Below are positions 3,254-23,398 of a stretch of DNA of 64,000 nt, piece by piece. Each line of letters begins with the position of its first letter. Position 1 is the first letter of the stretch. Made by a program: the position numbers and the translations under genes. Source of the DNA: Sediminibacterium salmoneum NBRC 103935. GTDB taxonomy: Bacteria; Bacteroidota; Bacteroidia; Chitinophagales; Chitinophagaceae. The stretch spans positions 298,912 to 362,911 of the forward strand of contig NZ_KI866530.1 in NCBI RefSeq assembly GCF_000511175.1, read 5' to 3'. A model generated the notes under the pieces. It saw nothing but the letters and a program-made list of their open reading frames with translations, had not been told where the DNA came from and made no database searches.

Positions 3254-3649
3254 ATGGCATTCTCAAATTCTGATACTTTAAAAATCGTAGTGGTTGAAGA
3301 CGAGATGACCATGCAGCTGATTTTAAAAAAGTACTTAAGTACGCTATATCAGGTAGAAATTTTTAAAGACGGGGTTGATGCAATGGCTTTTTTACAGCAA
3401 GGAAATGTTCCGGATCTTATTATATCTGACCTGAATACACCTGTGATGGGAGGCCTTGAGTTAACCAGGCAATTAAGAGCAAGTGATTTCTTCAATGCTA
3501 TTCCTATTATCATTTTATCCGGGGAAGAGAGTTCAGAAATGATTATTCAATGTCTTGAGGCAGGAGCAGATGATTATCTGGTAAAACCATTTAATCCCAA
3601 AGAGCTGGAAGCTAGGCTTAGAGTGGTTTTACGCAGAATCAGAAAATAA
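3254..3649 (+). CDS. Stand-alone response-regulator receiver protein
   Basis: A 131-residue protein consisting only of a receiver domain. The acidic pocket is in VVVEDE near the N-terminus, the phospho-acceptor is Asp59 in IISDLNTPVMGG, the Ser is in IILSGEE, and the conserved Lys111 is in YLVKPF. It has no output domain, so it should work by protein-protein contact. It is the first gene of the EPS locus and lies 17 bases before a sugar transferase that carries a receiver-like domain lacking the Asp. That context suggests it regulates polysaccharide initiation. No histidine kinase is encoded nearby. Confidence 0.93.
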   Translation: MAFSNSDTLKIVVVEDEMTMQLILKKYLSTLYQVEIFKDGVDAMAFLQQGNVPDLIISDLNTPVMGGLELTRQLRASDFFNAIPIIILSGEESSEMIIQCLEAGADDYLVKPFNPKELEARLRVVLRRIRK

Positions 3650-3666
3650 TTTCATTAAAAGGGCCA

Positions 3667-4863
3667 ATGAATACAATACTACCCCCCCAGGAGCAGATCA
3701 TCGTTTTTCTTAATTGTGATGACAATATTTTTGAAACTTTTTCGTCGGCCAATTTAGGAGGACGAAGTCTGAAACGTTTTGCCAATCCGCTGCTTTTTTT
3801 TGCCGAATGGGAAAAAAGCAAGTTTAATCTGGTCGCTATCGTTTCACAAAGTGAAGTGTTAGGTATTGGAGGTATTTCGCTGCTTGAAACACTGGTAAAT
3901 AAGAAAAATATCAATGTGCCTTTTTTTCTGGTAAGTCAGCAGTTGAGTGAAAGTACCGTTAGGATGACACTTAAATCAGGGGTTGCTGATGTTTTTAAGC
4001 TTCCAATACAAAAAGAGAATCTGGAAATCAGGATTCCATTTTTAATAGAAAAGTGGAATGACTTAAAGCACGCTAACACCGTATTGGATTTTCATAAATA
4101 TAAAACCCCCTTTATTAAGCGGGTATTTGATATATTCTTTGCCAGTTTGGCTTTGTTACTATTATCGCCACTTTTAATTACAGTTTGTATATTGCTGAAA
4201 CTGGAATCCCGGGGCCCCATATTTTATTACGCACTCAGAGTTGGGTCGGGGTATAGAACGTTTAAGTTTTATAAATTCAGGTCTATGTATGTGAATGCAG
4301 ATAAGCGCCTGAAAGATTTAAAACACCTGAACCAATATGCACCTGCAGCGGATGAAGCCACTACCAATAAAGCAGAGGAAGAGTACTTATGTGATGAATG
4401 TAAAGCAGCGGGAACGGGTTGTAAATTCCCTATTTATTCAGATACCATTCAATGGTGCGAAAAGCAATACAGTGAAAGTAAAAAAGCCAAAGCAGGATCT
4501 GCTTTCTTTAAACTAAAAGATGATCCCAGAATCACCAAAGTGGGTAAATTCATCCGAAACAGCAGTATTGATGAACTTCCGCAACTTTGGAATGTGATTA
4601 TTGGTGATATGAGTATTGTGGGAAACCGCCCTTTGCCGTTGTATGAGGCTGAGAAATTAACAACCGATAAATATGCCATGCGTTTTATGGCACCAGCAGG
4701 TATAACAGGCCTTTGGCAGGTAGAGAAAAGAGGGAAGGGCGAAATGTCCGAAGAGGAAAGGCTTATGCTCGACAATAAATACGCCGAAAACCATAGTTTC
4801 TGGTACGATATCAAGTTGATTCTCAGAACCATACCTGCACTTTTACAAAAAGAATCTGTATAA
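3667..4863 (+). CDS. Pseudo-receiver / polyprenyl-phosphate sugar-1-phosphate transferase fusion
   Basis: A 398-residue protein with two parts. Residues 1-130 have the length and beta/alpha pattern of a receiver domain, including a lysine in VFKLPI near 112, but the phospho-acceptor position (IVSQSEV, about 58-64) has no Asp. From about 145 it is a WcaJ/WbaP-type bacterial sugar transferase: one hydrophobic segment (FFASLALLLLSPLLI), KFRSMYVNAD, the catalytic region SSIDELPQLWNV and GLWQV. Such enzymes start EPS repeat units by moving a sugar-1-phosphate to undecaprenyl phosphate at the inner membrane. An insertion between about 220 and 285 carries four cysteines (242, 245, 252, 264). The length is close to that of WcaJ, but the N-terminus differs. 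Confidence 0.9.
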   Translation: MNTILPPQEQIIVFLNCDDNIFETFSSANLGGRSLKRFANPLLFFAEWEKSKFNLVAIVSQSEVLGIGGISLLETLVNKKNINVPFFLVSQQLSESTVRMTLKSGVADVFKLPIQKENLEIRIPFLIEKWNDLKHANTVLDFHKYKTPFIKRVFDIFFASLALLLLSPLLITVCILLKLESRGPIFYYALRVGSGYRTFKFYKFRSMYVNADKRLKDLKHLNQYAPAADEATTNKAEEEYLCDECKAAGTGCKFPIYSDTIQWCEKQYSESKKAKAGSAFFKLKDDPRITKVGKFIRNSSIDELPQLWNVIIGDMSIVGNRPLPLYEAEKLTTDKYAMRFMAPAGITGLWQVEKRGKGEMSEEERLMLDNKYAENHSFWYDIKLILRTIPALLQKESV

Positions 4864-4966
4864 TCCTGCTGATTTTTCTTTAATTAATTGCTTCATTCCT
4901 GACATTTGAATAAAGTGGGGATATCTAAACCATTGGTTTTAACTATATTATTTATCTTTAATCTTT

Positions 4967-5716
4967 ATGAGAATCATTGGTTTAGATATAAATTACCCTA
5001 AATCCTGCCTTCTGTCAAAAGTGAGTATTTCCTTTGTCAGGAAAAAGCTGTTTTTTTTGCTTTTTTCCTGTGCTTTTTTGTTGGGATCATCCAGGGAAAT
5101 CCAGGCCCAGGAATCTATGATTCCTGAATTGTCTTATCCTTTTCTGGAGAAATTGATTTTTTCTGCCAAGCAAAATTATCCCCTCATGAAAGCCAATTTA
5201 AGAAGGGTAAATGTGGCCAATTATAATCTTCAAAAAGCAAGGCTTTCCTGGTTCGATTTTTTTACTTTATCTGCATTTTATAGCCCCAGTACATCCGTAA
5301 CATTAACCAATGCTACATTAACGGGTGTGCAGATTGGGTTATTTATCAATTTTAGCAATATCATTCAAAAACCAACCGTAATTCGACAAACCCGGGAAGA
5401 GCTGGCTATAGCACAATTAACAGCAGATCAGTATGCAATAACGCTTGAGACAGATGTTAAGAACCGTTATTTCAGGTATATGCAAACACTTTCTGTGTTA
5501 AAAGTTCAGAATCAGAATGCAATAGACATTGAAGCATTATATAAGCAATTGAAGTTTCGGTACGAAAGAGGAGAAGAAACTTTAGAAAACTTTACTAAAG
5601 TAATGATACAGAATGCCGATCAAAGACAAAAAATTATTGATGCTGAAAGTGCTGCCTTGATTGCTAAAAACGCATTGGAAGAATTAGTAGGAAAAAAACT
5701 GGAAGAGATAAAGTAA
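4967..5716 (+). CDS. Half-length TolC-like outer-membrane protein
   Basis: A 249-residue exported protein. A signal peptide (KKLFFLLFSCAFLLG, then AQES) is preceded by about 25 extra residues. An in-frame GTG at 5021 would give a cleaner signal peptide, so that start is possible. The mature part resembles one repeat of the TolC/outer-membrane efflux family: long amphipathic helices (NLRRVNVANYNLQKARLSW; LTADQYAITLETDVKNRY) around a short beta segment. Full TolC proteins are about 430-490 residues with two repeats, so this is about half. Its stop is directly followed by the Wzz-like gene. Inference: it may be the outer-membrane part of EPS export. Confidence 0.75.
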   Translation: MRIIGLDINYPKSCLLSKVSISFVRKKLFFLLFSCAFLLGSSREIQAQESMIPELSYPFLEKLIFSAKQNYPLMKANLRRVNVANYNLQKARLSWFDFFTLSAFYSPSTSVTLTNATLTGVQIGLFINFSNIIQKPTVIRQTREELAIAQLTADQYAITLETDVKNRYFRYMQTLSVLKVQNQNAIDIEALYKQLKFRYERGEETLENFTKVMIQNADQRQKIIDAESAALIAKNALEELVGKKLEEIK

Positions 5717-7879
5717 ATGGAATTACAGAAGTTTTTTTTACTGTTATACAAGAGGAAATATATACTGCTCATTGTTCCAATGATTGCCGTATTTATAACC
5801 TATTTTCTTGTACGAAAGCTTCCGGATACATTTAAGTCAAGGTCCAGAATTTCAACCGGACTGGTAGATCAATCCCAGCAATTTCTTGAAACCAACAAAA
5901 CGCAGGACGAAAATAAAATCTCCCAGCAATTCAGCAACCTGATTGAGATGAACAGGCTGAAGCGAATTTTTGATCAGGTTTCCTTTCAGTTAATGGTTCA
6001 TGATTTAACCAGTGACAAGCCATTCAGACCTCCAAGTAAACTACTTAACGAAATTGGTCCTGAAGCAAGAGCACATGCACTAGAAGTTTTTAAAAAACAT
6101 ATTGTTTCAAAAGAGCCCCTTTCTCTTTTTGATAAAGATCAGTTTGGAATTAATCAACTACTCATTTCAATGGGTTATGATGAACCTACACTTCAGAAAA
6201 AAATTATCATCTATCGGGTTAATAACAGTGACTTTATAGATTTTGAATACGAGTCGGAAAATCCTTTTTTATCGGCATTTGTAATTAATACTTTAATCTC
6301 AGAATTTGTAGACTTCTACAGTAATTACATTAAAGGGAATCAGCAGAAAGCGGTGAATTTTTTGGATATGCTGATGAAGAAAAAGTACGACTCAATGACC
6401 GCTAAAATGCGATTACTGAGAGATTATAAAATTCGTAACAGGGTTTTGAATCTGAATGAACAGGCAAAAAGTTTATACAATCAAATTGCTGATTATGAGT
6501 CAAGGTTGCAAGTTGCCTTGAAAGACGTGGAAGCCTATCAGGGGGCTATCAGGGGAATAGAGAAAAAGTTTAGTCCACAAGACAGGCGATACCTGGAAAG
6601 TGTTGTAGTTGACGTGAATCAGTCGGTTATCGCAACAAGAGACAGATTGAGGCAGGTGACCAATGATTTGGTTAAGAGTAATTTTGATCCCAGAATAAAA
6701 GAGAAACAAGATTCATTGAGAAATGAATTGGAAAGCAAAGTTTTAGAATCTACTGACCGGCTTTTGGTTAGTCCATTGGCAAATAAACAATTGTTGGTTC
6801 AGCAAAAACTAAATCTGGAAATTGCGCTGGATCAGGCCAGAAGCAGTATTGATCCGCTTACCTCTGAACTTAGAAGACTGAATGAAAAGTTTGATATGCT
6901 GGTTCCGCACGAGGCATTGATTCAAAGCTATGAAGGTTCGGTTGATGTTGCAGGAAAGGAATACCTGGATATACAGAATCGGTTTAACCAGACTTCTCTG
7001 GAATCGAGTATGACCGTTCAGCTTCGGCAAATTGAAATGGCCATGCCCGGTCCGGCTCAGCCTTCAAAAAAATTATTGCTAGTAGCACTGGCAGGTATAA
7101 TTAGTTTTGTTTTCTGTTTGGCAGCATTATTTGTAATATTCTATCTGGATGACAGCATTCAGAATGCTACCGAATTGGCTAATAAAACCAATCTTCCTGT
7201 TCTGGCTTATCTGCCTTATATCAATACATCCATGCTCGATTTAACCAACTTGTGGAAGAATGGGGAAGGAAACAGAATAACAATTGCTTTTAAGAATCTG
7301 CTTCGTTCTCTTCGATTTGAAGTTGAGAGAGAAATGGGGAATAAAAAGTTGCTGGTTGTTACCAGCTTAACTGACGGCGAAGGAAAGACCTTAATATCAT
7401 TAGGACTTGCCTATGCTTATTCAATGGTAAACAAGCGGGTTCTTGTAATAGATGGAAATTTTGATCAACCTACTATAAGCGAAACAACAGGCGCCAATAC
7501 TTATTTAGAAGACTATCTTAAAAACAGAATAACGCTGGGCGAAATTGTTAAAGAAGGAAAAATAAGTGTTCTTGGTAACCGTGGCGGTGATACTTCAATT
7601 TTTGAATTTTGTGATGAATCTATTGTAAAGCCAAAGCTTACTTATCTGCGAGATGTATTTGATATTATAATTATTGAAGCACCATCCATGGATAAACTCA
7701 ATAAGTCAAGAGAGTGGGTGGTACTGGCAGAAAAAGTAGTTGCTATTTATGCAGCTGGTACAACAATAAAGAATGGTAAAAAGCAAAGTGTTCAATATCT
7801 CTACGATTTGGGCGATCAGTTTGCAGGCTGGGCATTGAACAAAGTAATTATCAATCGCCTTAACAAGATTCCTAAATAA
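5717..7879 (+). CDS. Wzz/GumC-type chain-length protein with degenerate BY-kinase domain
   Basis: A 720-residue inner-membrane polysaccharide co-polymerase. The first membrane segment is at about 15-33, followed by a long periplasmic coiled-coil region and a second membrane segment at about 450-475. The cytoplasmic domain resembles bacterial tyrosine kinases: a Walker A with GEGKT at 554-558, then VLVIDGN at 575-581 where Walker A' normally has DxD, and IIIIEAP at 650-656 where Walker B normally has Asp. The protein ends in NRLNKIPK with no tyrosine cluster. It probably controls chain length and links to export, while autophosphorylation looks unlikely. Its ATG follows the TolC-like stop with no gap. 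Confidence 0.9.
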   Translation: MELQKFFLLLYKRKYILLIVPMIAVFITYFLVRKLPDTFKSRSRISTGLVDQSQQFLETNKTQDENKISQQFSNLIEMNRLKRIFDQVSFQLMVHDLTSDKPFRPPSKLLNEIGPEARAHALEVFKKHIVSKEPLSLFDKDQFGINQLLISMGYDEPTLQKKIIIYRVNNSDFIDFEYESENPFLSAFVINTLISEFVDFYSNYIKGNQQKAVNFLDMLMKKKYDSMTAKMRLLRDYKIRNRVLNLNEQAKSLYNQIADYESRLQVALKDVEAYQGAIRGIEKKFSPQDRRYLESVVVDVNQSVIATRDRLRQVTNDLVKSNFDPRIKEKQDSLRNELESKVLESTDRLLVSPLANKQLLVQQKLNLEIALDQARSSIDPLTSELRRLNEKFDMLVPHEALIQSYEGSVDVAGKEYLDIQNRFNQTSLESSMTVQLRQIEMAMPGPAQPSKKLLLVALAGIISFVFCLAALFVIFYLDDSIQNATELANKTNLPVLAYLPYINTSMLDLTNLWKNGEGNRITIAFKNLLRSLRFEVEREMGNKKLLVVTSLTDGEGKTLISLGLAYAYSMVNKRVLVIDGNFDQPTISETTGANTYLEDYLKNRITLGEIVKEGKISVLGNRGGDTSIFEFCDESIVKPKLTYLRDVFDIIIIEAPSMDKLNKSREWVVLAEKVVAIYAAGTTIKNGKKQSVQYLYDLGDQFAGWALNKVIINRLNKIPK

Positions 7880-7894
7880 ATTAATTGCTACAAA

Positions 7895-9079
7895 ATGACT
7901 TTCCAATTCATTCTCGAATTTGCCTGGGTTTTTATTCAGATTGCTATTGGTTATAATTTAGTTCTACCTTTCTTTTTACTTTTATTATATGCAATAATTG
8001 GTAATAGAAAAAGAGTAATTCAATCTGAAAAAAAAGAAGCGGACTATGCTATTATTGTTACCGCATACGAACAAACTACATTAATACCTTCTGTTGTTGC
8101 TTCTCTTTTAAAGTTAAATTACAGTAACTACCTTATTTATATTGTAGCCGATAAATGTGATGTATCAGGGCTTCATTTTGAAGACGAAAGGGTGATTGTC
8201 CTTCGTCCTGAACATACGCTTTCGAGTAATACCCGTTCGCATTTTTATGCAATTGAGAGATTTAAGAGGCCACATGAAAGGTTAACTATTATTGATAGTG
8301 ACAATTTAGTTGATCCCGATTATCTATTAGCATTGAATGAATATTTTGATTTAGGTTATAAAGCCGTTCAGGGAGTAAGAGATGCAAAGAACCTGGATAC
8401 ATTGTATGCTGCATTGGATGGGGCAAGAGATATCTATTATCATTTTTATGACGGTAAAGTCTTATTTAATGTAGGGTCTTCTGCTACGCTTTCAGGATCG
8501 GGAATGGCATTTACTACCTCCTTATATAAAGAATGTCTGGGACGTTTAGATATAACAGGTGCAGGTTTTGATAAAGTTTTACAGAAGGAAATTGTAGGCA
8601 GGGGAAACAGGATTGCATTTTCTGAACATGCTATTGTTTATGATGAGAAGACATCAAAAAGTGATCAATTGGTAAATCAGCGTGCCAGATGGATTAATAC
8701 CTGGTTTAGGTATTTTAAGTTTGGATTCGGGATAACTGCCAGTGGAATACTCAGGCTAAACTGGAATCAGTTTTTATTTGGTTTGATTTTGCTTAGACCT
8801 CCTTTGTTTATTTTTCTATTACTTGGATTGTTTTGTTTGTTACTGAATTTGATTTTAAATCCTTTTGCTGCCTTGCTTTGGGTACTCGGTTATGTTATTT
8901 TTATCGGAGGCTTTATGATGTCTCTGATAATGAGTAATACGAATCCGAAAATTTATAAATCACTCTGGGGCATTCCTAAATTTATATTTTATCAGGTTAT
9001 GTCTTTAATGAGTGTTCGTTCCGCTAATAAGAGGTCGGTGGCAACTAAACATTTTCATGCTGATAAAAAAACTGAGTAG
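7895..9079 (+). CDS. Membrane-bound family 2 glycosyltransferase
   Basis: A 394-residue processive-type GT2. A hydrophobic N-terminal segment (about 5-32) is followed by the catalytic domain with IIVTAYEQT, the DxD in TIIDSDNLVDPDY and the QRARW acceptor motif. Two or three membrane segments follow (about 290-350). The layout is that of N-acetylglucosaminyl- or cellulose-synthase-like transferases that work at the inner-membrane face. It lies 15 bases downstream of the chain-length gene within the EPS operon, so it should add a sugar to the repeat unit. The sugar is unknown. Confidence 0.9.
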   Translation: MTFQFILEFAWVFIQIAIGYNLVLPFFLLLLYAIIGNRKRVIQSEKKEADYAIIVTAYEQTTLIPSVVASLLKLNYSNYLIYIVADKCDVSGLHFEDERVIVLRPEHTLSSNTRSHFYAIERFKRPHERLTIIDSDNLVDPDYLLALNEYFDLGYKAVQGVRDAKNLDTLYAALDGARDIYYHFYDGKVLFNVGSSATLSGSGMAFTTSLYKECLGRLDITGAGFDKVLQKEIVGRGNRIAFSEHAIVYDEKTSKSDQLVNQRARWINTWFRYFKFGFGITASGILRLNWNQFLFGLILLRPPLFIFLLLGLFCLLLNLILNPFAALLWVLGYVIFIGGFMMSLIMSNTNPKIYKSLWGIPKFIFYQVMSLMSVRSANKRSVATKHFHADKKTE

Positions 9080-9087
9080 TTGAATCA

Positions 9088-9861
9088 ATGATGCAAAAAA
9101 TAAAAAATTCAGTTCAGTTTCTGATTCAGAGAATCATTGGATATTCCAACTATCTATACTGGTTTAGTATTTATAGAGTGCTACGGTATCAATTCATGAA
9201 AGATGATATTGATATCACTTTTTTTATTGAGTTGGTTAAAAAGCAAAAGCAGGGAGTTGTGATTGATGCGGGAGCAAATGTGGGGTACACGAGTGTTATT
9301 TTTGCAAAAGCATTTCCTTCCAGTTCTATTATTTCTTACGAGCCTGTAAGGCTATTGTCTCAAATTATTTATAGAGTCGTTCGTTTTTTTAGAGTCAATA
9401 ATATTGAAGTAAGACAAAAAGCTTTGGGTGACTCTTTAGAAACAGTGATGATTAAAACACCCGTTATACAAGGTGTTAAAAAGCAAGGCCTTAGTTATAT
9501 TGATAAGGAAGTAGATCGGGAAGATATAGAGCTTATTAAGTCTAGTATTGCTGAAGAAGTAGATATGGTTACCCTGGATAGTGATTGGGGAAATCATATC
9601 AATCCTCCAATTTCAGGTATCAAGGTAGACGTAGAGAATTTTGAGTATTTTGTTTTGAAGGGTGCCAGAAATCTGGTTATGAAGTTTCGACCAATTGTAA
9701 TGGCAGAATTATGGGACAATGCTCGCAGGAACTCCTGTATTCAATTGATGCAGGAACTGGGATATAAAACATTTGTAATAAAGAACAAGGAGTTGGTTAA
9801 ATACCAGGGACAATCTTCTCTAAACTATTTTTTTATACCAGATTCCACTGAAGCGGAATAA
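9088..9861 (+). CDS. FkbM-family methyltransferase
   Basis: A 257-residue SAM-dependent methyltransferase. VIDAGANVGYTS at about 53-64 is the SAM-binding motif I of the FkbM family, and GIKVDVENFEYFVLKGA is the characteristic second motif. FkbM enzymes O-methylate sugars or polyketides; inside an EPS locus, methylation of a sugar hydroxyl is the likely role. The first two codons are both ATG. It starts eight bases after the preceding glycosyltransferase stop. Confidence 0.88.
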   Translation: MMQKIKNSVQFLIQRIIGYSNYLYWFSIYRVLRYQFMKDDIDITFFIELVKKQKQGVVIDAGANVGYTSVIFAKAFPSSSIISYEPVRLLSQIIYRVVRFFRVNNIEVRQKALGDSLETVMIKTPVIQGVKKQGLSYIDKEVDREDIELIKSSIAEEVDMVTLDSDWGNHINPPISGIKVDVENFEYFVLKGARNLVMKFRPIVMAELWDNARRNSCIQLMQELGYKTFVIKNKELVKYQGQSSLNYFFIPDSTEAE

Positions 9862-9875
9862 AATAATGTTTGTAA

Positions 9876-10025
9876 ATGAGAGTAAAACCTTCATCTAAGA
9901 GGCTAACTAAAGAAGAGCAGGCAATATTTGATCAGCAAAAGCTAGATCGCTTAACCAGGTTGGCAGCATTGGTATTTGCCGGAGCAAGTGTATATTACTT
10001 TTTTATCAAATTACTATTTCTTTAA
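9876..10025 (+). CDS. Small membrane protein of 49 residues, EPS operon
   Basis: An ATG at 9876 opens a 49-codon frame. The N-terminal half is charged (KRLTKEEQAIFDQQKLDRL) and the C-terminal half is one membrane segment (LAALVFAGASVYYFFIKLLFL), giving a small bitopic protein. Its TAA overlaps the ATG of the next gene as TAATG, which suggests translational coupling to the ligase-like gene, and the spacing fits the operon. I do not recognise a family. Inference: an accessory subunit of the downstream polymerase or ligase. Confidence 0.7.
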   Translation: MRVKPSSKRLTKEEQAIFDQQKLDRLTRLAALVFAGASVYYFFIKLLFL

Positions 10026-11539
10026 TGGAAGAACCATTCCAAATACCACTTGGTGAAAAAAATAATCGCAAAGGCTTTTTTACTCTTTTGCATGATTTTT
10101 TTATCGTAAGAAAGATGGGGGGTATTTGGGGACTGTTCTTTTTTGGTGCAGCAGCAATATTTTTTTCACTTGTGGTAAGTAAACTCGGATTGGTTCCGGG
10201 GATTCTTATTTTATTAATGCTAATTGGGTTGCCGGTTGTACTGGCCCTGATATTTTATCCAAAGTTCGGGGTTGTTACTTTTATAGTTGCTGCATATTTA
10301 ATAATGTATGTGGGCAGGATGAATATAACTGATTTCCCTTTAGGTACATTAATGGATGGAATGGAGTTGCTCTTGTTTTTAGGAATTTTTGTTCAGCAAA
10401 AAACAGAATCAAACTGGGCGCTTTTTAAAAGTCCAATCAGTGTTATTATTCTTGTCTGGATCTGTTATAATTTAATTCAGGTTATTAACCCAACAGCAGA
10501 GTCAAGACTTGCATGGGTATATACGGTTAGATCTGTGGCTGTAATTATGATGATGTTCTTTGTTTTTTTATATAATATCAGAACACTTGATTTTATTAAG
10601 TTAATATTAAAAATCTGGATTGGACTTTCGGTATTTGCAGCATTGTATGGGTACAAACAGCAGTATATAGGCTTCACCGCATTTGAAGAAGCATATTTAT
10701 ACTCAGATCCTGAGATAGCCGGACTATTATTTATTGGAGGCCAATGGAGGAAGTTTTCCATATTTACTGACCCGGTAGCTTTTTCCTATAATATGGTGGT
10801 AAGTGCACTGCTTTGTATTGGTCTGTTAACAGGGCCTTTTTCCAGAAGAACTAAAATTCTTTTAATGATCAGTGCCTTTTTATGTTTGACTTCTATGTTA
10901 TTTTCAGGAACCAGGGGAGCTTATGTTTTGCCCCCTGCAGCAATGGCTCTTTATGCCATTTTAAAGTTCAATAAAAAAGTAATGGTTGGAGCCATTATCG
11001 GCGCATTGGGATTTGCAGCCTTAATTTTTGTACCAACAACCAATCCAACCATCTATCGTTTTCAAACCGCATTTAAACCTTCGGATGATGCTTCTTTTAA
11101 CGTTAGGAAGTTGAATCAGAAACGAATACAGCCATTTATTCAGAGTCACCCATTGGGTGGAGGCCTGGGTGCTACTGGTATGTGGGGTAAAAGATTTGCG
11201 CCCAATTCTTTTCTTGCCAATTTTCCGCCAGATAGTGGCTATGTAAGGGTAGCAGTTGAAACAGGCTGGGTTGGGCTTCTGATTTTTTGTACATTAATGT
11301 TTATCATTCTCAAGGTTGGGATTAATAATTATTATACCATAAAAGACCCTACTTTAAAATCTATTTGTTTGGCAATGATACTGGTCATTTTTGCCTATCA
11401 TATTGGAAATTACCCCCAGGAAGCAATTGTTCAGTTCCCCTCCAATACATTGTTTTATTTGGTTGCGGCTCTCATTGTAATAACTAAACGTCTTGATTCA
11501 CAAAACAACTCAATGCAAGCATTCAATAATAAAGTATGA
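10025..11539 (+). CDS. O-antigen polymerase/ligase-like membrane protein (Wzy/WaaL type)
   Basis: A 504-residue very hydrophobic protein with about eleven predicted membrane segments. A large periplasmic loop at about 340-410 includes RKLNQKRIQPFIQSHPLGGGLG, a pattern usual in the Wzy_C/WaaL family. FSGTRGAYVLPPAA upstream of it is also typical. It should polymerise or transfer undecaprenyl-linked repeat units in the periplasm. Wzy and WaaL cannot be told apart by sequence alone; in an EPS operon with a Wzz-like protein and a flippase, polymerase is more likely. It shares TAATG with the small gene upstream and ATGA with the gene downstream. Confidence 0.85.
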   Translation: MEEPFQIPLGEKNNRKGFFTLLHDFFIVRKMGGIWGLFFFGAAAIFFSLVVSKLGLVPGILILLMLIGLPVVLALIFYPKFGVVTFIVAAYLIMYVGRMNITDFPLGTLMDGMELLLFLGIFVQQKTESNWALFKSPISVIILVWICYNLIQVINPTAESRLAWVYTVRSVAVIMMMFFVFLYNIRTLDFIKLILKIWIGLSVFAALYGYKQQYIGFTAFEEAYLYSDPEIAGLLFIGGQWRKFSIFTDPVAFSYNMVVSALLCIGLLTGPFSRRTKILLMISAFLCLTSMLFSGTRGAYVLPPAAMALYAILKFNKKVMVGAIIGALGFAALIFVPTTNPTIYRFQTAFKPSDDASFNVRKLNQKRIQPFIQSHPLGGGLGATGMWGKRFAPNSFLANFPPDSGYVRVAVETGWVGLLIFCTLMFIILKVGINNYYTIKDPTLKSICLAMILVIFAYHIGNYPQEAIVQFPSNTLFYLVAALIVITKRLDSQNNSMQAFNNKV

Positions 11540-12729
11540 TAAAAGGCAAAGACATCATTATAGTTGGTCAGCAACCCTGGGATATTGAGATTGGCAGTAA
11601 TTGCAAGAATATTGCCGTTGAATTTAGTAAATACAACAGAGTTCTCTATGTCAATTCTCCGCTGGATCGCATTACATTAATGAGAAATGGGAATGATGCA
11701 AAAATCAGGAAGCGGAAAGAGATTGTTGAAGGTAAAACATCTGGTTTACTACAAATAAGTGATAGTCTTTGGAATTTATATCCGGATGCCATGATTGAAT
11801 CAATCAACTGGATTTCTATTCACCCTGTTTTTAAAGTATTGAATAAAATAAATAACAGACGTTTTGCCGGCAGTATACAAAAAGCAGTCAGTAAATTGGG
11901 ATTTAAAGATTTTATTTTATTCAATGACAATGATATTTTCAGAAGTTTCCATTTGAAAGAATTGCTGAAGCCCGCTTTGTCAATTTATTATTCAAGGGAC
12001 TATATGCTTGCTGTTGATTATTGGAAAAGACATGGTGAAAAACTTGAACCTCAGTTGATTGCATCTTCCGATATCTGTGTGGCTAATTCTACCTATCTGG
12101 CTGATTATTGCAGACAATACAATCCTAATTCTTACTATGTAGGGCAGGGGTGTGAATTGGATTTATTCATGGATTTCAAAGGGGATTCACCCGCTGAAAT
12201 TAAAGCAATAGAAGGAATTAAAATAGGATATGTAGGAGCATTGCTGGGACTTCGTCTGGATATTGAGATTCTAACCGAGATTGCCAGAAGCAGACCTCAA
12301 TGGCAACTGATATTGGTGGGTCCTGAGGATGAACTTTTTAAAGGAAGCGAGCTTCATCAATTCTCTAATGTACATTTTCTGGGATCCAGGTCACCCAATG
12401 ATTTACCCTCATATATTCATTCCTTTGATATTTGTCTGAATCCGCAAGTAATTAGTCAGGTGACTATTGGTAATTATCCCAGAAAAATAGATGAGTACTT
12501 GGCTATGGGTAAACCAGTAGTTGCAACGAGTACTCCATTTATGGAAGCTGTTTTTTCTGGTTATACCTATCTGGCAAAAAATGCAGCTGATTATATTAGT
12601 TTAATTGAGCTTGCTTTACAGGAAGATAGTAAGCAAAAGCAATTGGAAAGAAAAGAATTTGCAGCTGAGCATACATGGGAAAACAGTGTGGCAGAAATTT
12701 ATAAAGCCATTGAAAAGCATTCAAATTAA
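11536..12729 (+). CDS. GT-B glycosyltransferase (family 1/4 like)
   Basis: A 397-residue soluble GT-B enzyme. The C-terminal domain has IKIGYVGALLGLRLDIEIL, a typical start of the donor-binding half, then KIDEYLAMGKPVVAT, the nucleotide-sugar E-x7-E-like region of GT4 enzymes. The N-terminal half starts DIIIVGQQPWDIEIGSN, common in Bacteroidota EPS glycosyltransferases. It overlaps the ligase-like gene by four bases (ATGA). It is expected to add one sugar to the lipid-linked intermediate in the cytoplasm. Confidence 0.88.
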   Translation: MIKGKDIIIVGQQPWDIEIGSNCKNIAVEFSKYNRVLYVNSPLDRITLMRNGNDAKIRKRKEIVEGKTSGLLQISDSLWNLYPDAMIESINWISIHPVFKVLNKINNRRFAGSIQKAVSKLGFKDFILFNDNDIFRSFHLKELLKPALSIYYSRDYMLAVDYWKRHGEKLEPQLIASSDICVANSTYLADYCRQYNPNSYYVGQGCELDLFMDFKGDSPAEIKAIEGIKIGYVGALLGLRLDIEILTEIARSRPQWQLILVGPEDELFKGSELHQFSNVHFLGSRSPNDLPSYIHSFDICLNPQVISQVTIGNYPRKIDEYLAMGKPVVATSTPFMEAVFSGYTYLAKNAADYISLIELALQEDSKQKQLERKEFAAEHTWENSVAEIYKAIEKHSN

Positions 12730-12767
12730 TTATTATTGTAAATTCAAATAGATTATCTAAGACCTTT

Positions 12768-14099
12768 ATGATTAAGAAGCTGGTACGGCAATTGAATAAT
12801 AAGCACTTTTTGTCTTTAGCAGGTAATGGTGCTATGTCGGTATTAGCAATGATAACAGTTGCAGTTTTATACAGAGCACTAACTGTAGAAGAAATAGGAT
12901 ATTGGGTTTTTTTTCAAACTGTAGCTGTTTTACTGGATACATTCAGGACTGGATTCCTGCAGGTTGCATTGGTGAAATTTTATACAGGAACTCAGAATGA
13001 GCGGGCAAAGGAAGTACTGGGTTCAGTTTGGTTTTTGGCCATAGTTATTACTGCTGTACTGGGATTAATAAATCTTTTGTTTGTTCCTTTTAAGTCCTAC
13101 TTTGATAATCCTGCCATATTAGTAATAATTCAGTGGTTTGGCTGGAGTTTTTTATCAACCCTTCCTTCAGGTATTGCTTCATGGATACTGCAGGCCGATC
13201 AGCGCTTTGACAGATTATTGATTTTAAGAATTGTTACACAGGGTAGCTTTATCCTTTCAGTTATTCTTTTAATTGTTTTTGATTTGATGCAATTACAGAA
13301 TGTATTCATTGCAAATATTGCATCAGCATCACTTGCCAGTTTAATTGCAGTTCTTTCAGGATGGTCGGGCATTAAAACACTAGGGGCTAAAACCGCTTCC
13401 TGTGTAAAGGAAATTTATCACTTTGGGAAGTATAGTGTAGGAACTACCATTAGTGCCAATATGCTCAGAAGTGCAGATACATTCATAGTTGCTTATATGC
13501 TTGGGCCCGCTGCCGTTGCTATTTATAATTTGCCTGGCAGACTCATGGAGATTATTGAAATTCCTTTAAGAAGTACACTGGCAACAGCTATGTCATCACT
13601 GGCCAAAGCTTTTAATACAGGAAACAAACGTGAAGTGGCATATATTCTGCAAAAGTATGCTGGTACTTTAACTGTAGCTTTTGTTCCATTGGCAATAGGT
13701 GCTATTTTGTTTGCGGATATTGCAACAGGGTTGTTAGGGGGTGGGAAATATGTTGATTCCGAAGCAGCCAATCTGTTGAGAATTATGATGTTGCTGGCGA
13801 TATTCTATCCAATTGATCGTTTCATAGCCGTTTCCCTGGATATCATTCATCAACCCAAAGCCAACTTTGTTAAAGTACTTTTAATGTTGCTGGTAAATGT
13901 AATTGGCGATTTTGTGGGTATATATTTAACGGGAAATTTATATGGAGCGGCATTAGCAACGTCTTTACCCTTAATAGTTGGAATTTTTTACGGTTATTAT
14001 CGTTTTAATCAGCATATACCATTTAAATTGTCAAATATTTTTGTATCAGGATACATTAATATCAGAAAAATGCTTAGAAAATACCTGGTTAAAAACTAG
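12768..14099 (+). CDS. Wzx-like polysaccharide flippase (MATE/MOP superfamily)
   Basis: A 443-residue protein with about twelve hydrophobic segments and the oligosaccharide flippase opening (FLSLAGNGAMSVLAMITVAVLYRALTVEE-type pattern). The repeat block around ADTFIVAYMLGPAAVAIYNLPGRL is characteristic of Wzx-like MOP transporters. It should flip the undecaprenyl-linked repeat unit to the periplasmic side, between the glycosyltransferases and the ligase-like protein. It starts 38 bases after the previous gene, one of the longer gaps in the operon. Confidence 0.9.
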   Translation: MIKKLVRQLNNKHFLSLAGNGAMSVLAMITVAVLYRALTVEEIGYWVFFQTVAVLLDTFRTGFLQVALVKFYTGTQNERAKEVLGSVWFLAIVITAVLGLINLLFVPFKSYFDNPAILVIIQWFGWSFLSTLPSGIASWILQADQRFDRLLILRIVTQGSFILSVILLIVFDLMQLQNVFIANIASASLASLIAVLSGWSGIKTLGAKTASCVKEIYHFGKYSVGTTISANMLRSADTFIVAYMLGPAAVAIYNLPGRLMEIIEIPLRSTLATAMSSLAKAFNTGNKREVAYILQKYAGTLTVAFVPLAIGAILFADIATGLLGGGKYVDSEAANLLRIMMLLAIFYPIDRFIAVSLDIIHQPKANFVKVLLMLLVNVIGDFVGIYLTGNLYGAALATSLPLIVGIFYGYYRFNQHIPFKLSNIFVSGYINIRKMLRKYLVKN

Positions 14100-14104
14100 A
14101 ACAA

Positions 14105-14944
14105 ATGGTTGTAGCTCACTTAATCCTGGTTCATTCCAAACCTGATCAGCTGAAGAGGCTGGTAAATAGGCTTGTGCACAACAAGGCTATTTTTTTCATA
14201 CACGTAGATGCCAAAGCCAATATAGAGTTATTCAGGGCAGCATTAAAAGGAATAAACAATGTTTATTTCGTTGATAAAAGGGTGGATATTCAATGGGCAA
14301 CCTATAGTATGGTAGAAGCAACTGTAAATGGGTTTGAGGCCATTGTTGCTTCTGGATTAGCTATTGATTATGTAAACCTGTTGAGTGGTCAGGATTATCC
14401 AATACAACCTGTTTCTAAATTTCATGATTTTCTAAGAATGAATCCCGGTAAAGCATTTATGCAGTGTCTGGATATTGAAACAGAATGGACAGAAGCTATT
14501 AGCAGAGTAAGATCTTATCACTTTACACATTGGACAGTACCTGGTAAATACAAGATTCAGAAAATCATAAATTTTCTTTTGCCAAAGCGAAATTTGCCTG
14601 AGAATCTTATTCCGGTAGGCAGGTCTCAATGGTTTACTATTTCATTAAAACATGTAGTCTTTATAATTAAAAGGCTGGAGGCTAACCCCGCTTTTTCTAA
14701 ATTCTTTTCATACTCGTGGGCACCGGATGAAATTATTTTTCAGACCTTGTTGTATAATTCCACTTTCAAGTTTGATATAGTGAATAACAATCTCAGGTAT
14801 ATTGATTGGTCCGAAGGGTTAAAAAACCCCAAAATGCTCACCAAAGATGACTTTTCAGCTATGATGAAGTCCGGGCATTTCTTCGCCAGAAAGTTCGCAG
14901 AAAACGACGATGTACTTTCAATGATAGATGCAGAAATAGGCTAG
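14105..14944 (+). CDS. Core-2/I-branching type glycosyltransferase (GT14)
   Basis: A 279-residue protein matching the beta-1,6-N-acetylglucosaminyltransferase family: HLILVHSKPDQLKRLV at the start, IHVDAKA, LLSGQDYPI at about 97-105, and SYSWAPDEIIFQTLL toward the C-terminus. Bacterial members add branching sugars to surface polysaccharides. It begins five bases after the flippase stop, so it is in the same transcript. It ends one base before the stop of an antisense gene. Confidence 0.88.
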   Translation: MVVAHLILVHSKPDQLKRLVNRLVHNKAIFFIHVDAKANIELFRAALKGINNVYFVDKRVDIQWATYSMVEATVNGFEAIVASGLAIDYVNLLSGQDYPIQPVSKFHDFLRMNPGKAFMQCLDIETEWTEAISRVRSYHFTHWTVPGKYKIQKIINFLLPKRNLPENLIPVGRSQWFTISLKHVVFIIKRLEANPAFSKFFSYSWAPDEIIFQTLLYNSTFKFDIVNNNLRYIDWSEGLKNPKMLTKDDFSAMMKSGHFFARKFAENDDVLSMIDAEIG

Positions 14945-14945
14945 C

Positions 14946-15434
14946 TTATTCCTTTTTATCCTGAGCAACAAAGGCTTTGATAAAGAAAAATATCCCAATA
15001 AAAATTACAACCAAAGCAAACGCATCCAGAACAGTGAAGCCATCGTGCTCATTAAAATAAAATAATGTGGCTATTTCAAATTCTGCCGTTGCTGGAGTAA
15101 CAATGGTTAAAAAGCCAACTGTAATAAATAACAAGCCAACACCTGAATATGCCAATCCTGCTGCCCAGTTGATTGCTTTGTCAGGCAGATTTTTTACGCT
15201 AAATGAACGGTGTTGTCTTAATAGCTTATCCATGTCTAAAACAATTTCTTCGCTGCCTCTTGCATCATCAGCGTGAGAATGATCTCCAACCTTGTATGTT
15301 TTTTCCATGGTGTGTAAAAACAGGTGTTGCATTTCTATAGCTTTTTGCTTGCTTACAGGCTGTTTTTCGAGTTCTTCAATGAACTCTGCAAAAACCTTTT
15401 CTATTTTTAAAACCTGACTGTTGTCTGTGGCCAT
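14946..15434 (-). CDS. Two-TM membrane protein of unknown function, antisense within EPS locus
   Basis: About 162 residues from the ATG at 15434 (a GTG at 15440 is possible). The N-terminal half is a charged helical cytoplasmic region (KIEKVFAEFIEELEKQ; HLFLHTMEKTYKVG) and the C-terminal half has two hydrophobic segments, WAAGLAYSGVGLLFITVGFL and FALVVIFIGIFFFIKAFV. I do not recognise a family. It is the only minus-strand gene between 3254 and 18080 and splits the EPS cluster into two plus-strand blocks. Confidence 0.75.
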   Translation of the reverse strand: MATDNSQVLKIEKVFAEFIEELEKQPVSKQKAIEMQHLFLHTMEKTYKVGDHSHADDARGSEEIVLDMDKLLRQHRSFSVKNLPDKAINWAAGLAYSGVGLLFITVGFLTIVTPATAEFEIATLFYFNEHDGFTVLDAFALVVIFIGIFFFIKAFVAQDKKE

Positions 15435-15502
15435 AAACACCTATTATTTCACTTTGTGCGCTAATTTAAATAAATTACGGAACTAATTGCCGGATAAGAT
15501 TC

Positions 15503-16414
15503 ATGAAAAAAGTATCCATTATTACAGTCAATTTTAATCATAGTCATGTAACGGATGAATTACTGGACTCTATCCGTGCCAGGAATACCTATGAAAACAT
15601 AGAAATTATTGTAGTTGACAACGGAAGCAAGGAGAATCCTGTTCCCGTTTGGAAGACTAAATATCCGGAAGTTCATTTTATTCGCTCTGAAGTGAATCTG
15701 GGTTTTGCCGGGGGAAATAATCTTGGTCTGCATTCTGCTACTGGTGATTTTTTATTCTTCGTTAACAATGATACAGAATTTACCAAAGGTCTGATTGATA
15801 CATTGGTTGAAACGCTTGACCATCATCCCGGTGTGGGTGTTGTTTCACCTAAACTGCTTTATTTTGACCAGCCAGGCATGCTTCAATATGCAGGATATAC
15901 GCCTATGAATTATTTCACGGCCAGAAATGCCTGTATTGGACAGTTTGAAACCGATAACGGACAATACGATCAATTGGTTGGGCCCACCGGATTTGCACAC
16001 GGGGCAGCAATGATGGTTACCAGAGAGGCAATACAAAAGTCAGGACCAATGGCAGAAAACTTCTTTCTCTATTATGAAGAGCTCGATTGGGCAGACCGGA
16101 TCAGAAGGAATGGCTTTGACATCTGGGTAAATATGAAAGCGACCATCTACCATAAAGAATCTATTTCTGTCGGGAAAAAGAGTGCCTTGAAAGAGTATTA
16201 TATGAATCGCAACCGCATCCTGTTTATCAGAAGAAATGCTCCTTTTTTAAAAGCAGTTTGTTTTTATTTTTATTTTCTGCTAATAGTTACCCCAAGAAAC
16301 CTGCTTGCTTATATCAGGGAGAAAAATTATAACTTCATTAAACAGCTATTCAATGCTATATGGTGGAATTTAACCAATGGGGTAAATAGTAAACAATTAG
16401 GATTCAAGCCTTAA
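15503..16414 (+). CDS. Rhamnosyltransferase-like family 2 glycosyltransferase
   Basis: A 303-residue GT2 enzyme of the WbbL/RfbF type: VSIITVNFNHSHVT at the start, IEIIVVDNGSKENP, NLGFAGGNNLGL, the DxD equivalent in FFVNNDTEF, and YYEELDWADRIRRNGF as the acceptor motif. The pair GFAGGNN and NNDTE is diagnostic of this branch. A hydrophobic stretch near 245-265 may anchor it to the membrane. It begins the second block of the EPS locus, after the antisense gene; specificity for rhamnose is family inference only. Confidence 0.9.
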   Translation: MKKVSIITVNFNHSHVTDELLDSIRARNTYENIEIIVVDNGSKENPVPVWKTKYPEVHFIRSEVNLGFAGGNNLGLHSATGDFLFFVNNDTEFTKGLIDTLVETLDHHPGVGVVSPKLLYFDQPGMLQYAGYTPMNYFTARNACIGQFETDNGQYDQLVGPTGFAHGAAMMVTREAIQKSGPMAENFFLYYEELDWADRIRRNGFDIWVNMKATIYHKESISVGKKSALKEYYMNRNRILFIRRNAPFLKAVCFYFYFLLIVTPRNLLAYIREKNYNFIKQLFNAIWWNLTNGVNSKQLGFKP

Positions 16415-16422
16415 TTTAAAAT

Positions 16423-17589
16423 ATGCATATAATTTTCTGGATATCTGTTTTCATTATCCTTTACACCTATATCGGATATGGATTGTTACTGTATTTAATT
16501 CTAAAATTAAAAGCAATCATTAAGGGGAAGAAGCAGAATCCTGAACCAGGATACACGCCTTCCTTAACCGTTATAGTTGCTGCTTATAATGAAGCTTACT
16601 GCATAGAAGATAAAATACTAAATACGCTGGCATTAAATTATCCGGCTGAAAAAGTCACTTTTATTTTTATAACAGATGGGTCTACGGATGAAACACCTTC
16701 AATTGTAGCGAAGTATTCTCAAATAAAAGGGATGCACCAGCCAGGAAGAAGCGGTAAAATTGCAGCAGTGCATCGTGCAATGGAGCAAGTGAGTTCAGAA
16801 GTAGTTGTATTTACAGATGCCAATACCATGTTAAACAAAGAGGCATTGATGCTAATGTGCAGGCATTATATTGATCCATCAGTAGGTGCAATTGCAGGGG
16901 AAAAAAGAGTTCAAATTGACGATACTGCAGATGCAACCGCAGGGGAGGGATTCTATTGGAAATATGAATCAAAATTGAAGAAATGGGATTCTGAGTTGTA
17001 TTCGGTAGTGGGTGCAGCAGGCGAACTGTTCAGTATTCGTACCAGTCTTTATACTCCTGTAGAACCTGATACCATTCTGGACGATTTTATGATTTCAATG
17101 CATATTGCTTTAAAAGGATATAGAATTGTGTATGAGCCTGATGCTTATGCTTCTGAGTTGGCATCTGCAAATACCGGTGAAGAATTAAAGCGGAAAATAA
17201 GAATTGCAGCTGGTGGGGTACAATCTACCATCCGACTTAAATCTCTTTTATGGCCATTCAGACAACCTGTTTTAAGTTTTGAATATATCAGTCATCGGAT
17301 ATTACGTTGGATGGTTACCCCTTATATGATGATTCTGGCACTTATTCTGAATAGTATAATTGTTTATTCCAGCGGCTGGAGCAATATTTATGGTTTGATG
17401 CTGGCAGGACAATTGTTTTTTTATCTGGCGGCATTGCTTGGGTGGATACTGGAACAAAGGCAGTTAAAAGTGAAAGTGTTTTTTGTTCCCTATTATTTTT
17501 GTTTGATGAATTACGCTGTAGTAGCAGGATTGCTCAGATATTGTTTTACAGAACAGTCTGTTTTATGGGAAAAAGCGAAACGAAAATGA
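16423..17589 (+). CDS. Membrane GT2 glycosyltransferase (cellulose-synthase-like)
   Basis: A 388-residue protein with an N-terminal membrane segment (about 3-28), a GT2 domain (LTVIVAAYNEAYCI, VVFTDANTML, DTILDDFMISMHI) and about three C-terminal membrane segments. The expected QxxRW motif is replaced by RKIRIAAGG, a variation seen in non-processive relatives. It starts eight bases after the previous glycosyltransferase. It should add or extend sugars at the inner membrane. Confidence 0.88.
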   Translation: MHIIFWISVFIILYTYIGYGLLLYLILKLKAIIKGKKQNPEPGYTPSLTVIVAAYNEAYCIEDKILNTLALNYPAEKVTFIFITDGSTDETPSIVAKYSQIKGMHQPGRSGKIAAVHRAMEQVSSEVVVFTDANTMLNKEALMLMCRHYIDPSVGAIAGEKRVQIDDTADATAGEGFYWKYESKLKKWDSELYSVVGAAGELFSIRTSLYTPVEPDTILDDFMISMHIALKGYRIVYEPDAYASELASANTGEELKRKIRIAAGGVQSTIRLKSLLWPFRQPVLSFEYISHRILRWMVTPYMMILALILNSIIVYSSGWSNIYGLMLAGQLFFYLAALLGWILEQRQLKVKVFFVPYYFCLMNYAVVAGLLRYCFTEQSVLWEKAKRK

Positions 17590-17657
17590 TTTGTTTTTAA
17601 AGTTTTCGCCGTACCTTCCAATATAATAGGATAATCAGTAAAAGAATCTTCAGATAG

Positions 17658-18080
17658 ATGATTAATAAAATTCTTTGTGTTGACGACGACAGTATCTCGC
17701 TTACTATTTCAAAATTACTTTTGAAAAGGACAGGTTTTACCAATGATGTGGTAACTGCAGTTGACGGTAGCGATGCATTGGATTATTTTAAAGATTTATT
17801 TGCTACCAGTTCAGATCCTGTGGCAGACGCGCCCTCTCTGATTTTACTGGACATTAATATGCCGGTAATGAATGGTTGGGAATTTCTGGAAGCTTATATT
17901 CCTCTGTTTGCAGAAAAATTGACCCAGACTAAAGTAATTATCCTATCCTCTACAATTGATCCGGAAGACTTCTCCAGGGCAAAAAAATTCCCTGTTGTTG
18001 CTCAGTTTGTGAGTAAGCCATTAAGTGTTGAAAATCTTGCTGAGTTAAAAGAAAACGAATTCGTTCAGCAATTCTTTTAA
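17658..18080 (+). CDS. Second stand-alone receiver protein
   Basis: A 140-residue receiver-only protein. ILCVDDDSIS gives the acidic pocket, Asp65 in LILLDINMPVMNG is the phospho-acceptor, Ser is in IILSSTID, and Lys120 is in FVSKPLS. It has no output domain and no kinase nearby. It lies 68 bases after the last EPS glycosyltransferase on the same strand and ends convergent with dapA. With the receiver at 3254 it brackets the EPS locus, so a regulatory role there is plausible but unproven. Confidence 0.92.
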   Translation: MINKILCVDDDSISLTISKLLLKRTGFTNDVVTAVDGSDALDYFKDLFATSSDPVADAPSLILLDINMPVMNGWEFLEAYIPLFAEKLTQTKVIILSSTIDPEDFSRAKKFPVVAQFVSKPLSVENLAELKENEFVQQFF

Positions 18081-22614: not shown

Positions 22615-23247
22615 CTAAAACAAAAATTTAAATCCAAATGAAAGTGGGGTAGTCAATGTTGGATTGCTTCCACCTAAAGCACTATTGTATGCGCTTTCTA
22701 CATTGGCTACATGAGCCAGAGAGAAATCGGTAATGGTTGTTTTATTACCTGTTTTTGGAGTCAAGGTAGTAAAGGACAGATTGGCAAGGTTGTAAGAAAA
22801 CTCAACACTGAAATGTTTACCCAGAATCATATCTAAGCCACCGGATGCTGCTAATCCTATCTGTGTTACTTTCAGTTCGCTTTGCTTTTCCTTACCGCTG
22901 ATGATGGGTGCAGCCAACTGACCAAAGAAATACATGCTGCCCGCAACATTCCAGTATTTTCTTACCAATGGCTGGAATACAAATAAACTGGTATTGGCAT
23001 TCGTAGTAGCACCGGTAACTGATTTTATATTAACTGTTCCAATACCAGCACCAATGGCTACGGATGGAGATACAAAAGTTCCTACAATTGGTAACACCGT
23101 TAAATTGGTACTCTTGTTGGTTCCGGTTTTTGTTTGTGTGTAGCCAAACTGAGAAGTGGCAAAACTAACTCCCTGTAATCCTTTCTTCTGAGCGTTAGCT
23201 CCAAGGCTAACAACAATAAGCAATAAAGCTGTCATTAATTTTTTCAT
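22615..23247 (-). CDS. Small outer-membrane beta-barrel protein
   Basis: About 210 residues from the ATG at 23247. A signal peptide (KKLMTALLLIVVSLGANAQ) is followed by alternating beta-strand segments and a terminal aromatic, GFKFLF, as in OmpA-like or opacity-type barrels of Bacteroidota. No enzyme motif is visible. It is monocistronic, with its own terminator. Function unknown; a porin-like or structural role is an inference. Confidence 0.82.
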   Translation of the reverse strand: MKKLMTALLLIVVSLGANAQKKGLQGVSFATSQFGYTQTKTGTNKSTNLTVLPIVGTFVSPSVAIGAGIGTVNIKSVTGATTNANTSLFVFQPLVRKYWNVAGSMYFFGQLAAPIISGKEKQSELKVTQIGLAASGGLDMILGKHFSVEFSYNLANLSFTTLTPKTGNKTTITDFSLAHVANVESAYNSALGGSNPTLTTPLSFGFKFLF

Positions 23248-23398
23248 AAACAATAATTTTATGCGAAGCTAAGTGGCTAATACTGAGCGAAATATGACCT
23301 GCATTACTCTCAATTATGATACTCATCATATTTTTATTTGAATGGGTAAGCAAGAGTGATAACTATGGTTATCTTCGTTTAAACACCAATTTTATACT

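Follow-up and report, generated by a model that had tools for sequence, protein, structure and literature searches.

A conserved half-length TolC-like protein encoded beside a Wzc-like protein: a candidate outer-membrane exit for exopolysaccharide in Bacteroidota

Described exits for Wzx/Wzy polysaccharides and the locus compared

In the literature cited here, polysaccharides of the Wzx/Wzy route leave the cell through OPX proteins, or through an OPX protein together with a barrel. Wza and Wzc each contribute an octamer to the stacked channel of E. coli (PMC12881504). EpsY-EpsX of Myxococcus xanthus combines an OPX protein with a single-chain 18-stranded barrel (PMC9601211 and PMC9603273). Chain-length proteins that are BY kinases carry Walker motifs and a Tyr-rich tail; EcpK is without these and is thought to be a scaffold (PMC12004946). 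In the open-licence PMC literature, judged mostly by listing, no half-length TolC and no TolC-type exit for Wzx/Wzy polymers was found, and the word TolC is absent from the main texts of PMC9601211 and PMC9603273.

The window analysed here is a 64-kb stretch of Sediminibacterium salmoneum NBRC 103935 DNA that contains an EPS locus with the following genes on the + strand. A response regulator receiver protein (3254..3649; Pfam E 1.4e-26), found at the same place in many relatives, precedes an initiating polyprenyl-phosphate sugar transferase, Bac_transf (3667..4863; E 2.4e-60), whose N-terminus is weakly receiver-like (Response_reg E 0.076, below the cut-off). The half-length OEP/TolC-like protein considered here (half-OEP; 4967..5716) and a Wzc-like chain-length protein of 720 aa (5717..7879; assigned by NCBIfam, AF model and Foldseek) follow. 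Downstream lie a GT2 glycosyltransferase (7895..9079; Pfam E 1.3e-36), an FkbM methyltransferase (9088..9861; E 2.9e-11), a member of the Wzy-type polymerase/O-antigen ligase family (10025..11539; Wzy_C E 1.8e-14), a GT1 glycosyltransferase (11536..12729; E 3.5e-13), a Wzx-type flippase (12768..14099; Polysacc_synt E 3.2e-15), a Core-2/I-Branching glycosyltransferase (14105..14944; E 1.5e-27) and two more GT2 glycosyltransferases assigned by Pfam (15503..16414 and 16423..17589). A 164-aa gene at 14946-15440 gave no Pfam match. The initiating transferase, flippase, Wzy-type polymerase/ligase and Wzz-like neighbours named by a first-pass annotation of this DNA were therefore all recovered, as Bac_transf, Polysacc_synt, Wzy_C and the Wzc-like protein. 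Response-regulator genes stand at both ends of the locus, at 3254-3649 and 17658-18080.

The half-OEP supplies the one match to an outer-membrane family in the Pfam scan of EPS-locus genes, which showed no adaptor, RND, MFS or ABC gene. A large barrel encoded by the locus was considered and rejected, since no barrel family occurs among the scanned genes at 3254-18080. Outside the EPS locus, the scan of the vicinity gave only one more outer-membrane-like match, to OMP_b-brl at 22618-23253; it is weak and falls below the cut-off (E 0.00013).

Compared with E. coli Wza-Wzc (PMC12881504), the locus likewise places a Wzc-fold protein beside an outer-membrane protein gene in a Wzx/Wzy pathway, but the partner here is half a TolC and not a Poly_export/SLBB protein, and the Wzc is altered in its Walker A' and B motifs and has no Tyr tail. 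As described for EpsY-EpsX (PMC9601211 and PMC9603273), the polymer would exit via beta-strands and not via the helical pore of Wza; however, neither the OPX protein nor the single-chain 18-stranded barrel of that system was found in this locus, and the strands here would come from several subunits. Similarly, the short OPX protein with a 16- to 18-stranded barrel that marks a composite OPX/beta-barrel locus was not found. With EpsV-EcpK and HfsAB, which are BY pseudokinase PCPs (PMC12004946), the locus shares a chain-length protein perhaps working without tyrosine phosphorylation. Here, though, the kinase-like domain is fused to the chain-length protein and has retained the Lys of Walker A; EcpK is a stand-alone protein without Walker motifs.

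The half-length protein and its predicted fold

The half-OEP gene (4967..5716, + strand) starts with ATG and ends with a TAA at 5714-5716, which the ATG of the Wzc-like gene at 5717 directly abuts. Its 249-aa product has a single OEP domain (PF02321; Pfam E 1.6e-15), in which residues 60-242 align with positions 1-187 of the 187 in the profile. As the full profile is covered, the protein amounts to one complete TolC repeat (residues 57-249), preceded by a signal sequence that, judged by eye, ends before about residue 48. The earlier claim that a half-length TolC-like protein abuts a Wzz-like gene is thus confirmed. The Pfam scan gave no Poly_export (PF02563) or SLBB match in this protein, and with one OEP match in 249 aa the two-repeat, four-strand protomer of TolC-type outer-membrane factors (OMFs) is absent. 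Genes of this type are presumably annotated as TolC family protein.

The other OEP matches of this genome are 11 two-repeat genes, a fusion (L010) and a protein that by eye is adaptor-like (L028). The half-OEP is the sole intact one-repeat gene among them, and none of the two-repeat genes lies inside the 64-kb window. L010 (G000:C1:1809263-1812802) by eye joins an OEP part to a CusA-like pump and seems to be frame-broken. The first residues of the half-OEP, M-x-I-I-G/D-L (window 4967-5000), are kept in 8/8 close relatives read and are followed by a variable stretch; in L164 they come after a longer start. The true start may lie further downstream, with the DNA at 4967-5000 conserved for another reason.

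An AF2 model of the half-OEP made from 26 sequences (mean pLDDT 86.2, pTM 0.66) has helices at residues 57-70 and 72-98, strands at 99-106 and 120-127, and helices at 129-200 and 206-241. One OMF repeat consists of two strands, a long helix and two helices in line (PMC8277102), and by this comparison the model carries exactly one OMF motif. The repeat topology of helix, strand, strand, long helix and helix is present both in the AF2 model and in its Foldseek and VIA-align matches to the N-terminal repeat of TolC/OprM. The first 39 PDB rows returned by Foldseek are TolC/OprM-type channels, including VceC, OprM and TolC, if rows titled only P. aeruginosa membrane protein or ST50 are taken, as we assume, to be channels of this type. 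The best E is 1.0e-4, six rows have an E no worse than 0.001, and an F-BAR domain comes next as row 40 (E 0.15). VIA-align placed model residues 58-249 on TolC 1-192 (1ek9), with 184 residues aligned at 3.9 A and Z 9.6. Hairpins of HlyD and MacA scored as high as the TolC-type channels (Z 10.1-10.4 over 86 residues), so the VIA-align Z alone cannot decide the fold. Against PDB sequences, a half-OEP profile gave a weak SilC match alone (E 0.009). The protein is therefore like TolC/OprM OMFs (PF02321) in its OEP domain, in the order of its elements and in its alignment with TolC 1-192; it differs from them in having one repeat per chain instead of two, in a locus whose Pfam-scanned genes include no adaptor or pump (an adaptor may be encoded elsewhere), and in being linked to Wzc.

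The predicted transmembrane beta-hairpin, residues 99-127 (5261..5347, + strand), was delimited from the AF2 strands and an alignment of 26 half-OEP proteins. In the strand columns of this alignment, hydrophobic residues mostly alternate with small or polar ones. Column 99 is hydrophobic, 100 mostly Thr/Ser, 101 hydrophobic and 102 mostly Ser; column 121 is mostly Tyr, 122 is Gln in 25/26, 123 mostly hydrophobic, 124 Gly in 26/26 and 125 hydrophobic; columns 127, 128 and 129 are mostly hydrophobic, mostly Asn and hydrophobic respectively. Columns 103-105 and 126 break the alternation. Columns 99-106 contain a single charged residue in the whole alignment, and columns 118-130 contain no such residue. 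The pattern fits a membrane hairpin, with both strands short (8 residues each) and a low-confidence loop (block pLDDT 54-79 over residues 101-130).

Conservation and pairing with the Wzc-like protein

The partner protein (5717-7879) gave no Pfam Wzz (PF02706) match at E 0.1, and its homologue in L109 a weak one (0.0065). Its NCBIfam matches, to TIGR03007 at E 1.8e-19 and to TIGR01007 at E 2.5e-15, did not reach the curated cut-offs, and the best Foldseek match of its model was Wzc (7nhr, E 1.5e-22), the next rows being Wzc too. The Wzc fold of PCP-2a proteins, comprising membrane helices, a periplasmic helical arm and a P-loop kinase-like domain, is present. In the model there are two membrane helices, long periplasmic helices at 183-240, 246-282 and 355-431, and a P-loop domain at about 540-710. 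Of 36 Wzc-like proteins, 35 retain the Walker A motif GK[ST] with its Lys, 19 show DGNF at Walker A', and 35 carry D or E in Walker B. The usual form of Walker A' has a second Asp. The last 25 residues of these proteins hold 0-2 Tyr, with one in the window protein, so a Tyr-rich tail is lacking. Judged by these motifs, the Wzc-like proteins probably have weak or no tyrosine kinase activity, and the missing Tyr tail with the changed Walker A' and B suggests an assembly working without tyrosine-phosphorylation control.

A single-sequence search with the half-OEP matched 71 of the 147 genomes in the family sample. The strong tier (E < 1e-28) holds 29 matches in 28/147 genomes, the window's own counted, and 29/29 are half-length; the 28 with a locus comprise 26 complete ORFs of 219-258 aa and two cut by contig ends. 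Full-length OEPs enter this search as weak matches alone, from E 4e-7. When further matches in frames of <=310 aa are added, the half-length protein occurs in 54/147 genomes, two of which (G006 and G091) have a stop inside the match; the remaining 17 of the 71 have weak matches alone, at E 4e-6 or worse, to longer OEPs. Only G097 has a second half-length match, and both of its copies are with a Wzc. Ten close loci were compared, two of them cut by the end of the stretch; in 8/8 of those readable upstream a half-OEP of 249 or 258 aa has its stop directly before the Wzc gene.

The half-OEP is under strong constraint (dN/dS 0.04). This value comes from the comparison with Sediminibacterium sp. 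C3 (L169; dN 0.029, dS 0.680, dN/dS 0.042), the Wzc of which is 98% identical to that of the window; the other half-OEP pairs have dS near or beyond saturation. A tree was also made of 24 half-OEPs, gathered with half-OEP queries, together with 16 N-terminal and 16 C-terminal repeats of two-repeat proteins. All 24 half-OEPs lie on one side of a branch with support 92/88, recovered in 92% of 200 bootstrap trees, outside both sets of repeats; the N and C repeats are not separated from each other and many end branches are long. The tree supports one half-OEP family over many truncations.

Half the usual length could suggest a truncated remnant of a full-length TolC, the case that the first-pass annotation had named as fatal to its own proposal. 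Because all 29 strong family matches are half-length and the full-length ones weak, dN/dS is 0.04 and the half-OEPs form a single branch, this reading was rejected and has hardly any credibility left. A half-OEP profile scores the C-terminal repeat best in 5/6 full-length proteins with a domain score > 30, a preference that is biased because 5 of those 6 were picked by the same profile. The single-repeat family could also be a surviving version of the unit that was duplicated to give rise to TolC, the tree favouring neither an ancestral nor a derived origin.

In the strong tier, Wzc adjoins the half-OEP in 26/28 loci, the window's included, and the other two loci end at a contig edge. Among 40 wide loci, Wzc follows directly in 33; in L121, L122, L126, L127 and L129 it is in the same stretch and the half-OEP stands after Wzy, and L120 has Wzy with no Wzc within the stretch. 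A survey of Bacteroidota EPS loci for the same adjacent pair, as proposed earlier, thus finds the pair recurring. In L128 (G180), a half-OEP profile match lies between chaperonin and dynamin-like genes, without Wzc or Wzy and outside any EPS locus.

With single window proteins as queries, 61/147 family genomes carry this Wzc type (E < 1e-28, full or as fragments; the next one, G058 at 1.3e-19, was left out). The single-sequence search finds a half-OEP in 51/61 of these (Fisher 1.4e-25), many of them paired at the level of the genome and not by position. When the other 10 were read, nine had a half-OEP after Wzy (8 complete at 234-261 aa, one cut by a contig end) and the tenth contig stopped at Wzy. 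In total, the half-OEP is present in 60/61 Wzc genomes of the family sample, and the contig of the exception ends at this place. Three family genomes have a half-OEP without such a Wzc: a divergent Wzc adjoins the half-OEP in G070, the G128 contig breaks off at it, and G122 has no such explanation.

In the phylum sample, 19/247 genomes match the Wzc profile at E < 1e-100 and 19/19 have a half-OEP, a count that is largely circular because 14 of these genomes had themselves entered the profile by way of their half-OEP. The phylum search itself found a half-OEP in 18 Wzc genomes versus 2/228 others (Fisher 3.7e-24), and the nineteenth, G151, was added by locus reading. The five new genomes are G151, G230 and G156, with the half-OEP directly upstream of Wzc, G287, where it lies after Wzy on another contig, and G180, where it is on another contig outside any EPS locus. 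Of all 19 genomes, 14 have the half-OEP immediately upstream of Wzc, 3 have it behind Wzy within the same stretch, and 2 have it on a separate contig. Both Fisher values ignore the shared ancestry of the genomes, and the linkage is carried by the family count made with single sequences and not by the phylum count.

This linkage bears on two further explanations. The half-OEP might combine with one of the cell's two-repeat TolC proteins into a mixed channel, which chain arithmetic permits and for which the genome offers 11 two-repeat OEP genes; however, none of these is in the window, the half-OEPs have a branch of their own apart from the sampled N and C repeats, and their linkage is to Wzc, so that such a hetero-oligomer appears improbable. 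Less probable still is another export task, such as small-molecule or peptide efflux, with the gene placed in the EPS locus by chance or co-regulation. It would suit an OEP family known mainly from efflux and type 1 secretion (PMC8277102), but the scanned locus genes include no adaptor, RND, MFS or ABC gene, and 60/61 Wzc genomes of the family sample have the half-OEP.

A second arrangement has the half-OEP after Wzy, some genes away from Wzc. In 8/10 loci of this kind (L188-L196, except L191; L197 is too short) an ORF of 1831-2413 aa lies just upstream of Wzc, and in L109 a 2404-aa ORF lies a few genes upstream of it. The large ORF of L194, the one scanned, combines fn3, laminin-G and PA14 domains with a tail for type IX sorting. 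Neither the 515-aa gene that follows the half-OEP in L195, by eye an inner-membrane protein, nor its 523-aa counterpart in L194 gave a Pfam match.

Four loci of a more distant Wzc class were read. A half-OEP is upstream in L150 and L155 (Pfam OEP E 3.7e-12 and 1.7e-21) and absent in L151 and L160. At seven loci with the usual kinase-type Wzc, a 169-198-aa protein takes the place of the half-OEP in six (L153, L154 and L156-L159, not L152). Four were scanned, and 4/4 have SLBB, a domain of OPX proteins (PMC9603273), without Poly_export. The short SLBB proteins of L153, L154, L156 and L158 have by eye a hydrophobic C-terminal stretch and, in other lineages of the phylum, precede the usual kinase-type Wzc. 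Poly_export was also considered for the ORFs ahead of the SLBB genes in L153, L156, L158 and L159 and rejected, since these ORFs are FtsX.

The proposed exit and the Wza-type genes

The pairing of half-TolC and Wzc appears to be more general than one locus, and an EPS export module is its best-supported reading, one that the genomics and the monomer model moderately favour. On the same evidence we lean towards the half-OEP as a homo-oligomeric, OPX-independent outer-membrane exit for Wzx/Wzy EPS, acting with its Wzc-like neighbour. Within the TolC (OMF) superfamily it would be a one-repeat form dedicated to this task, closing into a ring of identical subunits. Six would rebuild the 12-stranded barrel of TolC, and eight would give 16 strands, matching the octamer known for E. 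coli Wzc. The periplasmic tip of the ring would dock on the helical arms of the Wzc-like protein, and the Wzy-made polymer would exit through the ring, in which case no Wza would be needed. The partner would contribute a degenerate kinase, the assembly probably not being under tyrosine-phosphorylation control. If Wzc is octameric, a one-repeat chain could match it 1:1, which a two-repeat trimer could not. A bolder and distinctly tentative proposal is a fourth polysaccharide exit type, after OPX proteins, synthase barrels and OPX/barrel composites, in which an OPX-independent half-TolC ring, sized by its Wzc-like partner (eight subunits, 16 strands, wider than TolC), would operate without tyrosine-phosphorylation control.

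If the proposed exit is true, a conserved OPX-free module in many Bacteroidota would be an additional type of outer-membrane exit. It would join efflux-channel and capsule machinery and explain matrix secretion by these Bacteroidota. Questions about what sets the ring size of such channels, and about the origin of the duplication in TolC, could then be put to a natural one-repeat TolC.

The search for Wza-type genes elsewhere in the genome, which the first-pass annotation had recommended, returned only two Poly_export genes, L059 and L060, 1.34 and 1.39 Mb from the half-OEP; their absence from the 64-kb window was borne out. In a test set of 52 half-OEP genomes from the family and phylum searches, 51 have Poly_export genes, 135 in all, and the exception, G046, is 79% complete. 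None is within 31 kb of a half-OEP in the 52 genomes; 30 of the 135 are on the same contig, the nearest at 31 kb. A Wza hidden in the EPS locus was rejected on these grounds.

Nineteen of the 135 Poly_export loci were read, namely both from this genome (G000), all three from G087 and one each from 14 genomes that have a single such gene. A chain-length partner or a probable one is present in 15, as a Wzc in 9 (L172, L174, L175, L176 and L182-L186) and as a 348-368-aa protein of the L059 type in 6 (L059, L171, L178-L180 and L187, where it follows a second Wza-like ORF). The 348-aa protein adjoining the L059 Wza had no Pfam or NCBIfam match, and of three homologues one had no match and two had weak BexC or Wzc-N matches; with matches absent or weak, this protein is counted as a probable chain-length partner only. 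Neither partner was found at L060, L173, L177 and L181. In the 14 genomes with a single Poly_export gene, it is next to Wzc in nine (G005, G029, G035, G043, G069, G089, G097, G105 and G438), near the 350-aa type of protein in G112 and G119, and near neither in G156, G166 and G254.

In the chief competing explanation, on which these loci bear most directly, a distant Wza (L059 or L060, the latter partnerless) forms the pore in trans, and the half-OEP serves the Wzc-like protein as a docking collar in the periplasm or outer membrane. Poly_export genes occur in 51/52 half-OEP genomes, and L060 (810 aa) stands without a neighbouring chain-length gene, as do L173, L177 and L181 among the 19 loci read, so that service in trans by an OPX protein is conceivable; the free Wza L060 in the same genome is the strongest point against the half-OEP as the pore. 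However, 15/19 of the loci read have their own Wzc (9) or probable chain-length protein (6), the single Poly_export gene adjoins Wzc in 9/14 and the 350-aa type of protein in 2/14, no Poly_export gene is near the half-OEP in the 52 genomes, and the hairpin is kept with membrane character. A collar served by a distant pore is thus unlikely, although it carries more weight than the mixed channel. The first-pass suggestion of an EPS export module is supported in part, by a conserved, non-remnant half-TolC tied to Wzc; the channel role and the ring size are kept as conditional parts of the homo-oligomeric exit, against the unlikely case of a Wza in trans.

The L060 gene (7253-9685 of that locus; G000:C1:1693252-1695684) encodes a Wza-type protein with Poly_export and several SLBB domains, and is flanked by the type IX secretion genes porU and porV. 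G087 (L180) has a similar Wza with an adjoining chain-length-like gene and a PorV-like gene a few genes off. In L187 (G112), the Poly_export gene seems to be split over two adjacent frames of 551 and 280 aa.
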